Of a stretch of 64,000 bases of DNA, positions 5,697 through 35,082 are shown piece after piece. Position 1 is the first letter of the stretch. Every line of letters begins with the position of its first letter. The DNA comes from Duganella zoogloeoides. GTDB lineage: Bacteria; Pseudomonadota; Gammaproteobacteria; Burkholderiales; Burkholderiaceae_D. Both the position numbers and the translations under genes were made by a program. A model generated the notes under the pieces. The model ran no database searches and was not told where the DNA came from. It saw only the letters and a list, made by a program, of their open reading frames with translations. Location of the stretch: positions 1,240,001 to 1,304,000 of the forward strand of contig NZ_CP140152.1 in the NCBI RefSeq assembly GCF_034479515.1, in the 5' to 3' direction.

Positions 5697-6908
5697 TCAG
5701 CCCGCCAGCGCAGCGCGGCCGAGGGCGGGGTCGTCGGTGAAGAAGCCGTCGATGCCGGTGGCGATGTAGCGTTTCATTTCGGCGATCGAGCCGGCTTCGT
5801 TGCGGGCGGTGTCGGCGCCCTTGCGGAAGTCGGCGGCCAGGAAGCGGTTTTCCGGGCGGAAGGTCCACGGCTCGATACGCAGGCCGGCCTGGTGGGCGTC
5901 TTCCACCAGCGACGACGGTGCCGCCAAGCTGCCGTCTTGTTTCAACGGGATGATCGCGCGGGTCGGGGGCGCTACCACGTCGGCGTACCGGGCGATGTCG
6001 CGCAGGCCGGCCGGGGTGCACATCTGCTTGAAGGTCAGCTTGCCGCCGGCCGCTGCCACGTCCATCGGCCGCACATCCTCGCCGATCACCAGCTGCATCA
6101 GGCGCAGGTTGGCGCGCGTGGCCAGTTTGCTGCGCAGGTATTTCAGGTTGGCTACTTCGAACGACTGGATTTGCACCGGGTTGCGCCGCGTGTAATCGTG
6201 CGCGGCGATAATGGACAGGAAGCGGTCTTCCAGCGGCAAGCCGACGCTGGCGAAATAGGTCGAGTGCTTGAGTTCTGGCACGATGCCGATGATGCGCCCG
6301 TGCGCGGCTGCTTCGGCCGCGACGAAGTCGATGATTTCCTCGAACGTCACCACCTGGAACATGCCGTTGTACTCGGCGCTGCCGGGACGGAACTGCGGAA
6401 TGCGCTCGACCGCGCGCAGGGTTTTGAGTTCCGCCAGCGTGAAGTCGTCAACGAACCAGCCGTCGTGCGCTTCGCCGTCGATGGTCTTGCGCGTCTTGCG
6501 GCTGGCGAATTGCTTGTGGCTGGCCACATCGGTGGTCTCGCTCAGGTAGGCTTCGTGGCGCGCGACCAGCACGCCATCCTTGGTGCTGCACAGGTCCGGC
6601 TCCACGTAATCGGCGCCATCGACGATGGCCCTGGCGTACGCGGCCAGCGTGTGTTCGGGACGCAGCGCGCTGGCGCCGCGATGGCCGAATACCAGTGGAC
6701 GTTTGCCACCGGCGACGCCGCCAGCGCCCAGCGGCGCAATCCCCGGCATGCCGGACTGGTCAATACCAGCAGCCGGCGTTGCTGCCAGCACCGAAGCTGG
6801 CAGCAATAGCGAAGCGCCAGTGACCGTAGCAACTGCGGCGGCTGTCTGAATAAAACCGCGCCGTGACAAGCTGCCCGGCAACGGCGATGCAAAAGTTGAT
6901 TGGGTCAT
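5697..6908 (-). CDS. glpQ: glycerophosphodiester phosphodiesterase, Tat-exported
   Basis: A 403-residue periplasmic enzyme that cleaves glycerophosphodiesters to glycerol-3-phosphate and an alcohol. The N-terminus has a twin-arginine signal (SRRGFIQTAAA, residues 15-25, then a hydrophobic stretch and a likely cut after VLA). The GDPD catalytic set is visible: GHRGAS (His76, Arg77), PEHTLAAY, VEPDL (Glu103, Asp105) and ARHE (His118). It resembles periplasmic GlpQ more than cytosolic UgpQ. It lies 60 bases downstream of the TonB receptor on the same strand and is probably transcribed from the receptor's Pho-box promoter. The pairing suggests the product phosphate or glycerol-3-phosphate is used during phosphate limitation. 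Confidence 0.92.
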   Translation of the reverse strand: MTQSTFASPLPGSLSRRGFIQTAAAVATVTGASLLLPASVLAATPAAGIDQSGMPGIAPLGAGGVAGGKRPLVFGHRGASALRPEHTLAAYARAIVDGADYVEPDLCSTKDGVLVARHEAYLSETTDVASHKQFASRKTRKTIDGEAHDGWFVDDFTLAELKTLRAVERIPQFRPGSAEYNGMFQVVTFEEIIDFVAAEAAAHGRIIGIVPELKHSTYFASVGLPLEDRFLSIIAAHDYTRRNPVQIQSFEVANLKYLRSKLATRANLRLMQLVIGEDVRPMDVAAAGGKLTFKQMCTPAGLRDIARYADVVAPPTRAIIPLKQDGSLAAPSSLVEDAHQAGLRIEPWTFRPENRFLAADFRKGADTARNEAGSIAEMKRYIATGIDGFFTDDPALGRAALAG

Positions 6909-6968: not shown

Positions 6969-9380
6969 TCAGAAGTCTGCCATCAACGTCAGGAAGCCCT
7001 GGCGTGGTGCGATCGGAAAGGTATTGTACGTGCCGCTGGCCGCACCCACTACAACGTTGAGGTCGCCCTTTTTGTCGGCCAGGTTGCTGATGTTGACACG
7101 GTAGCGCGCGTTCTTGATCCAGTTGCTGTTCAGGAAGGGCAGCTTGCCCGACACGCCCAGGCTCATCAGGAAATAGCTCTTCACCGCCAGGTCGTTGGTG
7201 TAGGTGGCGTAGCGCTTGCCCACGTAGTCGCCGATCAGCTGGAACTCGGCGTCGGCCACGTTGGCGGTGGCAACGAACTTGTTCATCCACTCCGGGCTGC
7301 CGGGAATGGTCTTGCCGGCGGTTGGCACGATGGCGCTGCCGTTGCTGTAGTTGTCCTGGTACTCGGCGCGGTTGTATGACAGCGCGTTGTAGAACGAGAA
7401 GCCACGGCCGAAGTGCAGCGTGCCCGACAGGTCGATGCCATCGGTCTTGACGCTGCCGACGTTGGCCAGCACCGGGTTGCCGCCGATGATGGACGAGATC
7501 ACCGGCGTCGGGCTGATGGTCAGCAGGCGGTCCTTGAAGTTGACGTGGTAGAGGTTGACCTGGCCGTCGAAGGCCGAGATTGTGCCCCAGTTCAACTGGC
7601 GGCTGGTACGCAGGCCCGCTTCATACGTGACCGAGGTTTCCGGCTTGGCCGTGTCGCGGAACAGGTCGAACGCGGACTGGCTGGCCAAACTCCACGGCGA
7701 TGCACCGCCGCCGCCGTAGGTGACGAACTGGCGCATGTTTTTCTGCACGTTGAAGAACGCCTGGTCGTGCGGCGTGATGTCCCAGCGCGCGCCCAGTTGC
7801 GGCAAGAACCATTTCTTGGTGTCGATCTTGCCGACCGGCAGGGCGGTGGAACCGTTGGCAATCGCGCCCACTTTGGGCTGTACCGGGAACTGGCCATCGG
7901 CAAACTGCAAGCTCGATTTGAAGCCGGCCTGCAGCGCGATATCGTCGCGCACTCGCCATTCGTCCTGCAGGTGCAACTGCACAACCTTGTTGTCGATCTC
8001 GCTGCCGTACTGGGTGATCAAGGGATTGCTCGGGCGGTCATATGGCGAGCTCGGGTTGTTGATGTCGAGTGCATACCAGCGGCGGTACGCTTCCGAGCGG
8101 TTGCGCTCGAACCAGATGCCCGCTTGCAGCTTGTGGTTGCCGATCTCGCTGCGCACGGTGGACAGCCAGCCGGCGCGGTTGATTTTATATTCGGTGGTAC
8201 GGGTGGCGTAACCGGAGTTGCCGAACACCTGTTTCAGATTCTGGCCCGGGAAATACACCGAGAACAGGCCCGGCAAACCGGCCACGCCGATCGGACCGGC
8301 CACCACGCCCACGCCGTCGTCGTTGTGGTAGTACACCTGGTTCGACCAGGTGGTGTTGTCGCTGACGTTCATGTCGAACTTGGCGTAAGTCAGGTAGTCG
8401 GTGCGCTGCGCATCACTGTAGTAGTTGCGATAGTTGTTGCCTTCGGCCGTCGGCGTGGCGCCGGTGGGGGAAAGGTAATTGACCGCTTCCTGGAAATTCG
8501 GGTAGATGAACGGGCGCGTGTACGGTTGGTATTTCTCGGTTGCCGAGCGCACGGTGCTGTCTTCGTTCGGTTCGATCTTGTCCGAGTAGTTGAGGAACAG
8601 GGTCAGCTTGCCCAGGCCGCTCTGGTTCACGTACTTGGCATTGAACTGGTCGCCGCCCTGGCGCGCATCGAAGTCCCACGCCTTCTGTTCGTGGTGCAGG
8701 GCCGAGATGTAGGCGCTGCTGCCGTCGCCAAACGCGCCGGTATCGTAACGGACGAACGTGCGCGAGGTGGTGTGGCTGCCCACGGTTTGCTGCACGGCCA
8801 GGTTGCGGGTTTGCGTGGGATCGCTCGAGAAGGTCTCGATGGTGCCGCCGAGGTTGCTGGTGGACGCGGTGGCCAGGTCGCCGGCGCCCGACGACAGGAT
8901 CACGCTGCCGACATTTTCGCTGATCACGGCGCGCTGTGGCGACAGGCCGTTGTAGTTGCCGTATTGCTGGTCACCGAGCGGCACGCCGTCCATGGTGTAG
9001 CCGAGTTGCTGGCCGGAGAAGCCGTGGATGAACAGCGACAGGTTTTGTTCGTTGTTGCCCCACGGGTCGGCGGTCTGGAAGCTCACGCCGGGCAGGGTCT
9101 GCAGGGCTTTCAGCGGGTTGATGCCTGGCAGGATTTTCTGCATGTCGCTCTTGCTCATCTCGACCGAGGAGCGGGTCTTGCGGGTGGAGATCTCCACGGT
9201 GGCGATCGGCGCGCCAGCGGCGCCGACGGTTGCTGCGTCAGCCGCTGCGGCAGCTTCCACTGCGGCAGGGGCCTCGGCCATCTCGGCAACGGCGGCGGCA
9301 ACATTGGCAGCCATGGCCAGCATCGGGAGACTCAAAGCGATCAAGCATGCCGAGCGCATTACGGATAATTTCTTGTTCAT
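6969..9380 (-). CDS. TonB-dependent receptor, predicted Pho-regulated
   Basis: An 803-residue outer-membrane receptor. A signal peptide is visible (MNKKLSVMRS, hydrophobic core, AMAANVAAA), then an Ala/Glu-rich linker, a TonB-box-like ATVEIST, a plug domain (ILPGINPLKALQTLPGVSF, LFIHGFSGQQLGYTMDGVPLG) and a 22-strand-type barrel ending in Phe (LMADF). The ligand is not evident from sequence: there is no siderophore or cobalamin neighbour and no Fur box upstream. What is upstream is an array of Pho-box-like heptamers and a well placed -10 box; what is downstream is a glycerophosphodiesterase. I infer uptake of a phosphorus compound, perhaps a phosphodiester. AAGG lies just upstream of the start. 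Confidence 0.85.
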   Translation of the reverse strand: MNKKLSVMRSACLIALSLPMLAMAANVAAAVAEMAEAPAAVEAAAAADAATVGAAGAPIATVEISTRKTRSSVEMSKSDMQKILPGINPLKALQTLPGVSFQTADPWGNNEQNLSLFIHGFSGQQLGYTMDGVPLGDQQYGNYNGLSPQRAVISENVGSVILSSGAGDLATASTSNLGGTIETFSSDPTQTRNLAVQQTVGSHTTSRTFVRYDTGAFGDGSSAYISALHHEQKAWDFDARQGGDQFNAKYVNQSGLGKLTLFLNYSDKIEPNEDSTVRSATEKYQPYTRPFIYPNFQEAVNYLSPTGATPTAEGNNYRNYYSDAQRTDYLTYAKFDMNVSDNTTWSNQVYYHNDDGVGVVAGPIGVAGLPGLFSVYFPGQNLKQVFGNSGYATRTTEYKINRAGWLSTVRSEIGNHKLQAGIWFERNRSEAYRRWYALDINNPSSPYDRPSNPLITQYGSEIDNKVVQLHLQDEWRVRDDIALQAGFKSSLQFADGQFPVQPKVGAIANGSTALPVGKIDTKKWFLPQLGARWDITPHDQAFFNVQKNMRQFVTYGGGGASPWSLASQSAFDLFRDTAKPETSVTYEAGLRTSRQLNWGTISAFDGQVNLYHVNFKDRLLTISPTPVISSIIGGNPVLANVGSVKTDGIDLSGTLHFGRGFSFYNALSYNRAEYQDNYSNGSAIVPTAGKTIPGSPEWMNKFVATANVADAEFQLIGDYVGKRYATYTNDLAVKSYFLMSLGVSGKLPFLNSNWIKNARYRVNISNLADKKGDLNVVVGAASGTYNTFPIAPRQGFLTLMADF

Positions 9381-9421: not shown

Positions 9422-9427
9422 ATGATA
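9422..9427 (-). promoter_or_regulatory. -10 box of the Pho-type promoter
   Basis: On the minus strand this reads TATCAT. It begins 10 bases after the last Pho-box-like heptamer (9438-9444), the spacing expected where PhoB replaces the -35 contact. The receptor start codon lies about 40 bases further downstream. Confidence 0.55.
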
Positions 9428-9437
9428 GGTTTCGCAT

Positions 9438-9521
9438 GTGACCGCGTGATGACCGCTCAGTGACCGCTCAGTGACCGCTCAGTGACCGCCCAGTGACTGC
9501 TCAATGATGGCGGCATGACCG
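9438..9521 (-). promoter_or_regulatory. array of eight Pho-box-like half-sites at 11-bp period
   Basis: Read on the minus strand, heptamers occupy 9515-9521 (CGGTCAT), 9504-9510 (CCATCAT), 9493-9499 (CAGTCAC), 9482-9488, 9471-9477 and 9460-9466 (each CGGTCAC), 9449-9455 (CGGTCAT) and 9438-9444 (CGGTCAC). The period is exactly 11 bp throughout. The PhoB half-site consensus is CTGTCAT with 4-bp spacers; these match at 5 or 6 of 7 positions. One step before and after the array the match is lost. Known Pho promoters usually have two to six half-sites. The target is the receptor-glpQ operon on the minus strand; the divergent lipoprotein gene may also be affected. Confidence 0.75.
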
Positions 9522-9576
9522 CAAAAATCCCGGGGCTGGTACACTGTGCCCGATGGAAATAACCAGGAATCACATC

Positions 9577-35038: not shown

Positions 35039-35046
35039 TCCTTGAT

Positions 35047-35082
35047 TCAGTTATTTACTCAGTTATTTATTCAGTAATTTAT
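35047..35082. repeat. three tandem 12-bp AT-rich repeats
   Basis: TCAGTTATTTAC, TCAGTTATTTAT and TCAGTAATTTAT follow each other without gaps, 9 bases upstream of the EEISW membrane-protein start (minus strand). The 76-base gap between the two membrane-protein genes is otherwise unremarkable. The repeats may help promoter or regulator binding, or be a simple slippage product. Confidence 0.7.

Follow-up and report, generated by a model that had tools for sequence, protein, structure and literature searches.

Phosphorylated PhoB (PhoB-P) binds its operators head-to-tail, and RNA polymerase is recruited by the promoter-proximal pair of sites, which stands in for a −35 element. The tandem Pho boxes of cyanobacteria, which are bound by a relative of PhoB, consist of 8-bp repeats separated by gaps of 3 bp, most often three in number. 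The E. coli-type Pho box is built from 7-bp half-sites and 4-bp spacers, so that its head-to-tail units are 11 bp long and have a TGTCA-like core (PMC4415409, PMC6194859), and E. coli ugp has "multiple PHO boxes", for which the passage on it gives no number (PMC4415409). The complex PHO operators of Streptomyces PhoP are composed of 11-nt direct repeat units, divided into core and ancillary ones; pitH2 has six units (four core and two weaker) and glpQ2 has five (PMC7866108), while box number seemed to have no effect in one Streptomyces (PMC6283541). Pseudomonas glpQ and phoBR mutants did not grow on glycerophosphocholine, and the text of that report does not mention TonB (PMC5438359). We found no PhoB promoter with eight half-sites in the accessible parts of the open-licence literature, and no description of a TonB receptor–glycerophosphodiesterase pair in open-licence titles and abstract openings.

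Here, we analyzed a 64,000-nucleotide stretch (the window) of the 6.32-Mb single-contig genome of Duganella zoogloeoides. Reading of its minus strand at 9438–9521 confirmed the initial annotation of eight heptamers that follow one another at an unbroken 11-bp period, each agreeing with CTGTCAT at 5 or 6 of 7 positions, and of a TATCAT −10 box (9427–9422) 10 bp beyond the last one. From the outermost to the promoter-proximal half-site, the intervening spacers are GCCG, TGAG, TGGG, TGAG, TGAG, TGAG, and CACG; the last half-site is followed by ATGCGAAACC and then by TATCAT, the end of which is 41 bp from the receptor ATG (9380). The features are as follows, with half-site scores in bits from the PhoB matrix described below.

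5697–6908, minus: glycerophosphodiester phosphodiesterase (GDPD) family protein, 403 aa (Pfam PF03009, 9.9e-41)
6969–9380, minus: TonB-dependent receptor, 803 aa (Pfam PF00593, 1.1e-27; PF07715, 2.8e-08)
9422–9427, minus: putative −10 element TATCAT, 10 bp past half-site 8
9438–9444, minus: half-site 8, promoter-proximal, CGGTCAC, 6.9 bits; 10 bp to TATCAT, the same box distance as in orthologues
9449–9455, minus: half-site 7, CGGTCAT, 9.2 bits; similar pair in L011, L086, and L033
9460–9466, minus: half-site 6, CGGTCAC, duplicated unit, 6.9 bits; one of three identical CGGTCACTGAG units
9471–9477, minus: half-site 5, CGGTCAC, duplicated unit, 6.9 bits; one of the three CGGTCACTGAG units
9482–9488, minus: half-site 4, CGGTCAC, duplicated unit, 6.9 bits; one of the three CGGTCACTGAG units
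9493–9499, minus: half-site 3, CAGTCAC, 5.9 bits, bottom 1% of training half-sites
9504–9510, minus: half-site 2, degenerate, CCATCAT, 2.0 bits, under every training half-site
9515–9521, minus: half-site 1, outermost, CGGTCAT, 9.2 bits
9577–9897 (alternative start 9553), plus: divergent small lipoprotein-like gene, lipobox LGGC by eye

The array resembles the E. coli-type Pho box in its 11-bp head-to-tail units, its TGTCA-like core, the −10 element close behind, and the PhoB encoded in the genome, but differs in having eight half-sites instead of two per box, in its spacers, which are GC-rich (TGAG), in the weakness of its CGGTCAC units, and in being restricted to one lineage. It shares several unequal-strength units in 11-nt phase with the complex operators of Streptomyces. 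However, Streptomyces PhoP belongs to another phylum and has the consensus GTTCACC, whereas the units here are CGGTCAY and near forms, three of them identical through the spacer; units of the GTTCACC type, by which the Streptomyces operators are recognized, were absent from the array. The cyanobacterial boxes are likewise tandem repeats, but with 8-bp repeats and 3-bp gaps. The array is most likely an unusually long but otherwise ordinary phosphate switch, the usual length being two to four half-sites.

The position of the receptor gene and its Pfam matches bore out the earlier statement that a TonB receptor lies downstream of the box. The receptor had no NCBIfam match, and a search of solved structures at 0.001 gave no sequence relative; its closest counterparts among named genomes were found in Duganella phyllosphaerae (93%) and Duganella sp. 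Leaf126 (89%). The GDPD protein reached NCBIfam below the cut-off only (156 of 254 bits), and its start, SRRGFIQ, looks twin-arginine-like by eye. The two genes presumably form one operon. Among the best 80 of 429 homologous stretches, which were used as the orthologue set (81 promoters including the window), the GDPD gene came directly after the receptor gene in 76; two of the four exceptions, L025 and L072, stop roughly 0.1 kb past the receptor. In L068 (Collimonas humicola), the receptor and a two-site box are kept and no GDPD relative was detected in the 3.5 kb downstream (tblastn, 1e-5). The divergent lipoprotein-like gene, present in 31 of the 80 loci, had no Pfam or NCBIfam match. The outermost half-site lies approximately at the −35 position of this gene, for which TACACT at 9540–9545 could serve as −10 by eye, so PhoB binding might affect the divergent gene too.

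Under the rule of at least 5 of 7 matches to CTGTCAT, both strands of the window contained one run of eight, six runs of two, and none in between. In 100 dinucleotide shuffles of the window the longest run was two (84 shuffles) or three (16 shuffles). Four mismatch-free GTCA cores in 11-bp phase occurred at two places only in the whole genome, namely in this array and upstream of a paralogous TonB receptor at 701,922. A chance origin of the array was ruled out by the window shuffles together with the shuffled orthologue promoters, in which at least two half-sites were found in 0 of 800.

We then scored the array with a PhoB matrix of the genus, constructed from 134 half-sites of 67 of 69 pstS, phoA, and 5′-nucleotidase promoters with no receptor promoter included; its source was conserved promoters of the genus, not footprints and not all Burkholderiales. 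The training loci were 20 of 30 for pstS (same genus only), 19 of 30 for phoA (one divergent locus and ten second copies were dropped), and 30 of 30 for 5′-nucleotidase. The best pair was located exactly N10 before TAnnnT in 68 of these 69 promoters, and G at position 3, T at position 4, and A at position 6 were invariant. The initial annotation had taken all eight heptamers as Pho-box-like half-sites. Seven of them exceeded the lowest training site (4.1 bits), most being weak, whereas CCATCAT failed, lacking the G found in 134 of 134 training half-sites, and only the two CGGTCAT half-sites passed the 5th percentile of the matrix (7.1 bits). CGGTCAC falls in the bottom 4% of training half-sites. 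Since most half-sites are below 7.1 bits, the array is not called a run at the 5th-percentile cut-off, and since CCATCAT is not a PhoB half-site by the matrix, six contiguous half-sites and one outer half-site remain. The last pair (half-sites 7 and 8), the counterpart of the two-site box in other Duganella, summed to 16.1 bits, compared with 20.0–25.5 bits for the pstS, phoA, and 5′-nucleotidase boxes of the same genome and 13.3 bits for the typical, weaker two-site Duganella receptor box. Judged from its sequence, the array is very probably a PhoB box.

For the orthologous promoters, we counted half-sites in runs ending N10 before TAnnnT. The cut-off was lowered from 3 to 2.4 bits because CGGTAAC, present in several orthologues, scores 2.5. 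Among the best 80 stretches, run lengths were zero (1 promoter), one (3), two (42), three (5), four (28), and five (1), so that 76 had at least two half-sites; at 3 bits with a looser −10 rule they were one (7), two (34), three (4), four (27), five (1), and none (7). The same scan gave six contiguous half-sites for the window, or eight when the degenerate and outer ones are counted, making this array the longest of the 81 orthologous promoters. Most Janthinobacterium loci had four half-sites and most Duganella loci two. On the opposite strand, at least two half-sites were detected in only 1 of 80 orthologues; a PhoB box facing the divergent gene was rejected on this count. The initial annotation had named loss of the repeat in relatives keeping the operon as evidence against its reading; in these relatives the eight-fold length was lost and the box was kept. 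Its claim of a PhoB-type box before a TonB receptor is supported, at the sequence level, by the matrix, by the N10 spacing from the −10 element, by conservation in orthologues, and by the GDPD neighbour.

A receptor tree (FastTree, with local support values) was constructed from 47 of the 81 receptors. The window, L009, and L010 formed one clade with a local support of 100, with eight half-sites in the window, five in L009, and four plus a degenerate fifth in L010. The surrounding Duganella clade comprises 25 further rows, of which 24 had two half-sites and one had three. Among close Duganella, the long box is confined to this three-species clade (four, five, and eight). Four half-sites also occurred outside the clade, in Janthinobacterium, two Rugamonas, Pseudoduganella lurida, and several Massilia; hence, those of L010 could have been retained rather than regained. 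The 47-receptor tree is compatible with gain as well as with loss of half-sites.

The PhoB gene of the genome, located 3.7 kb behind pstS, scored 296.8 bits, just over the family cut-off of 296.2, and its PhoU and PhoR neighbours were identified by eye. E. coli PhoB was the closest solved structure to its DNA-binding domain (1e-25); the full-length protein at 1e-40 returned BaeR and RegX3, with PhoB absent. We examined 22 places in the genome matching the pattern: 20 CTGTCAT-pair places with up to 2 mismatches (those with 3 mismatches were left out, except inside the array) and two further places from the GTCA-core scan. Five of the 22 precede phosphate-type genes. The two best CTGTCAT pairs (1 mismatch) are before pstS and before alkaline phosphatase, and the other three places are before a 5′-nucleotidase-type gene (with a 5′-nucleotidase C-terminal domain), the paralogous TonB receptor, which is 37% identical to the window receptor, and an exonuclease/phosphatase-family gene. 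Three of the other 17 precede genes for an outer-membrane beta-barrel protein (TonB-receptor match), an FdhD/NarQ protein, and a DUF6272 protein, and the remaining 14 are inside open frames or upstream of genes without assigned identity. A second PhoB-like response regulator was observed at G000:C1:4424399-4425103 (L178:6382-7158, minus), scoring 264 bits against TIGR02154, which is under the cut-off. It is near the exonuclease/phosphatase-family gene, which bears its own CTGTCATGATGTCGTCAT pair, and no kinase adjoining it was recognized by eye among the listed open reading frames.

In the same scan, exactly two half-sites were found in all pstS (20/20), phoA (19/19), and 5′-nucleotidase (30/30) promoters. 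Among the promoters of paralogous receptors (38 of 58 lower-scoring receptor rows), 31 had four half-sites, two had two, and five had none; these five and one of those with two were among the lowest-scoring rows (<345 bits). Half-site number thus looks gene-specific in these sequences, which share descent within each promoter set, so that the counts are not independent. We tentatively raise a further idea, which we regard as rather less probable than its negation: half-site number would be a gene-specific setting, mostly in steps of two (two at pstS, phoA, and 5′-nucleotidase; four at the paralogous TonB receptor), moved by phase-neutral 11-bp tandem duplication, and the eight-, five-, and four-site species would represent a tuning series under way.

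Arrays of six GTCA(Y) units with up to 2 mismatches were identified in 5 of 74 genomes of the genus, 8 of 392 of the family, and 4 of 399 of the order, each count including the window's own array. A mirrored-pattern control gave 5, 9, and 1 genomes, respectively; long GTCA(Y) arrays per se are hardly commoner than the mirrored pattern. The surroundings of 14 other arrays were read, and promoter geometry before phosphorus-related genes was recognized in two. L325 has about seven units before a GDPD-family gene, the last of which is 10 bp before TTTACT, and L303 has about six before an acetyltransferase gene, the last 10 bp before TAGTTT (all by eye); we take this acetyltransferase to be of the ornithine-lipid type. 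Compared with the window array, their units have diverged, some having ATCA or TTCA cores, and they belong to other genera and other genes. By their sequence these two arrays are possible independent long Pho boxes in other Burkholderiales. The other 12 appeared by eye to be plain repeats, for example L189, L194, and L300, in which no promoter geometry was seen by eye. L300 (G174:C30:51802-51938) has twelve near-perfect tandem copies of CTGTCATYACC, i.e. the Pho consensus in an 11-bp period, about 200 bp before grpE, with no N10/−10 geometry by eye; the genome belongs to the same family and measures 2.2 Mb. In the window itself, an AT-rich unit of 12 bp, ATTCAGTTATTT, was noticed in about three copies at 35045–35082, where the surrounding window has 65% G+C; they are just upstream of an apparent minus-strand start codon (by eye).

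The array itself retains signs of how it may have lengthened. Its three consecutive CGGTCACTGAG units are identical, spacer included, and two of them stand side by side in L009; this identity through the spacer points to tandem duplication. The last pair, CGGTCAT and CGGTCAC separated by CACG, resembles the two-site box of L011, L033, and L086, and ATTTTTG precedes the outermost half-site both here and in L009. Tandem Repeats Finder also called the array (period 11, 9438–9507) and fitted a 33-bp period as well, corresponding to three units, which is how many more the window has than L009. The order of duplications that we infer is as follows: the two-site box of most Duganella would have been extended by head-to-tail duplication of the 11-bp unit in one lineage, the three species of which now have four, five, and eight half-sites. 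Duplication by 11 bp would preserve helical phase without any additional cause, and the outer units look decayed.

Taking these results together, we consider it probable that the array is the PhoB-activated promoter of a phosphate-starvation unit, consisting of the TonB receptor and the GDPD protein, and that it was lengthened by 11-bp duplication. The array would be bound by PhoB and respond to phosphate, with the Pho box substituting for a −35 element and the last half-site placed 10 bp before the −10 element. Because of the enzyme family, the receptor and the phosphodiesterase are predicted to harvest glycerophosphodiesters jointly. As their likeliest role, the added copies may raise the PhoB-P occupancy of the weak proximal pair via neighbour contacts, with diminishing returns. 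We examined this proposal with a nearest-neighbour lattice model at two arbitrary cooperativity values (10 and 100), each with two energy scales, i.e. four settings. Going from the last two to the last four sites lowered the half-activation level 1.4- to 2.8-fold, and going from four to eight lowered it by up to about 1.4-fold without added steepness. That the added copies compensate for weak proximal half-sites has roughly an even chance of being correct. Compensation would not be obligatory, since the two-site box kept by most Duganella is just as weak or weaker still.

The main rival to compensation is that the outer units are neutral: the Pho box would be real, but half-sites 1–6 would be products of slippage or unequal exchange, and only the last two to four would matter. 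We judge this a serious possibility, somewhat short of an even chance. The three units identical through the spacer, the divergence of precisely the outer ones (CCATCAT and CAGTCAC), the uniqueness of the length among 81 promoters, the similar frequency of mirrored arrays in the genus and family, and the almost absent effect in the model past four to six sites are all consistent with neutrality. On the other hand, the long version is common to three species, with copies that differ, and the GTCA cores were changed less than the other positions when the six upstream units were compared with CGGTCACTGAG by hand (1/24 versus 8/42), although not significantly (p = 0.09). Furthermore, 31 of 38 promoters of paralogous receptors have four half-sites, which indicates that extra half-sites can be retained.

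The initial annotation had favoured a long, strongly cooperative platform, or one tuned to fire at low PhoB-P. In the comparison of 11 site sets, the summed score of the array (53.9 bits) was the highest, and its length is unmatched among the orthologous promoters, both of which suit such a platform. However, the single sites are mostly weak and one fails the matrix, the full length occurs in one lineage only, and it looks like a product of tandem duplication. In the model, pstS fired earlier than the receptor promoter in all four settings, eight sites were no steeper than four, and the shift past four to six sites was small. Neither strong cooperativity nor tuning to low PhoB-P was upheld, and we regard an eight-site platform of this kind as unlikely; the small gain past four to six sites in the model favours compensation over it.

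Less likely still, the true ligand would be a different member of the OmpR family, such as the second PhoB-like protein (G000:C1:4424399). Its 264-bit score to the PhoB model, its location about 4 kb from the CTGTCAT pair before the exonuclease/phosphatase-family gene, and the approximately two dozen near-full-length relatives in the genome make such a candidate conceivable, but the matrix and the N10 geometry derive from pstS, phoA, and 5′-nucleotidase promoters, and having a phosphodiesterase gene as neighbour speaks for the Pho regulon. A non-regulatory chance tandem repeat or iteron-like array, for which the 11-bp-phase GTCA arrays without promoter geometry by eye (L189, L194, and L300) could speak, is highly improbable, and an iteron or plain repeat is refuted as a full account by the shorter box that 76 of 80 orthologues have at the corresponding position and in matching orientation, with 0 of 800 in shuffles.

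With a PhoB-activated promoter as the preferred reading, the locus would assign a conserved TonB receptor–glycerophosphodiesterase pair to the predicted Pho regulon of Oxalobacteraceae. It would also offer a natural allelic series, with two, four, five, and eight half-sites at one orthologous promoter, for the question of how operator length sets a two-component response. Finally, it suggests that Pho boxes may grow by plain 11-bp tandem duplication.
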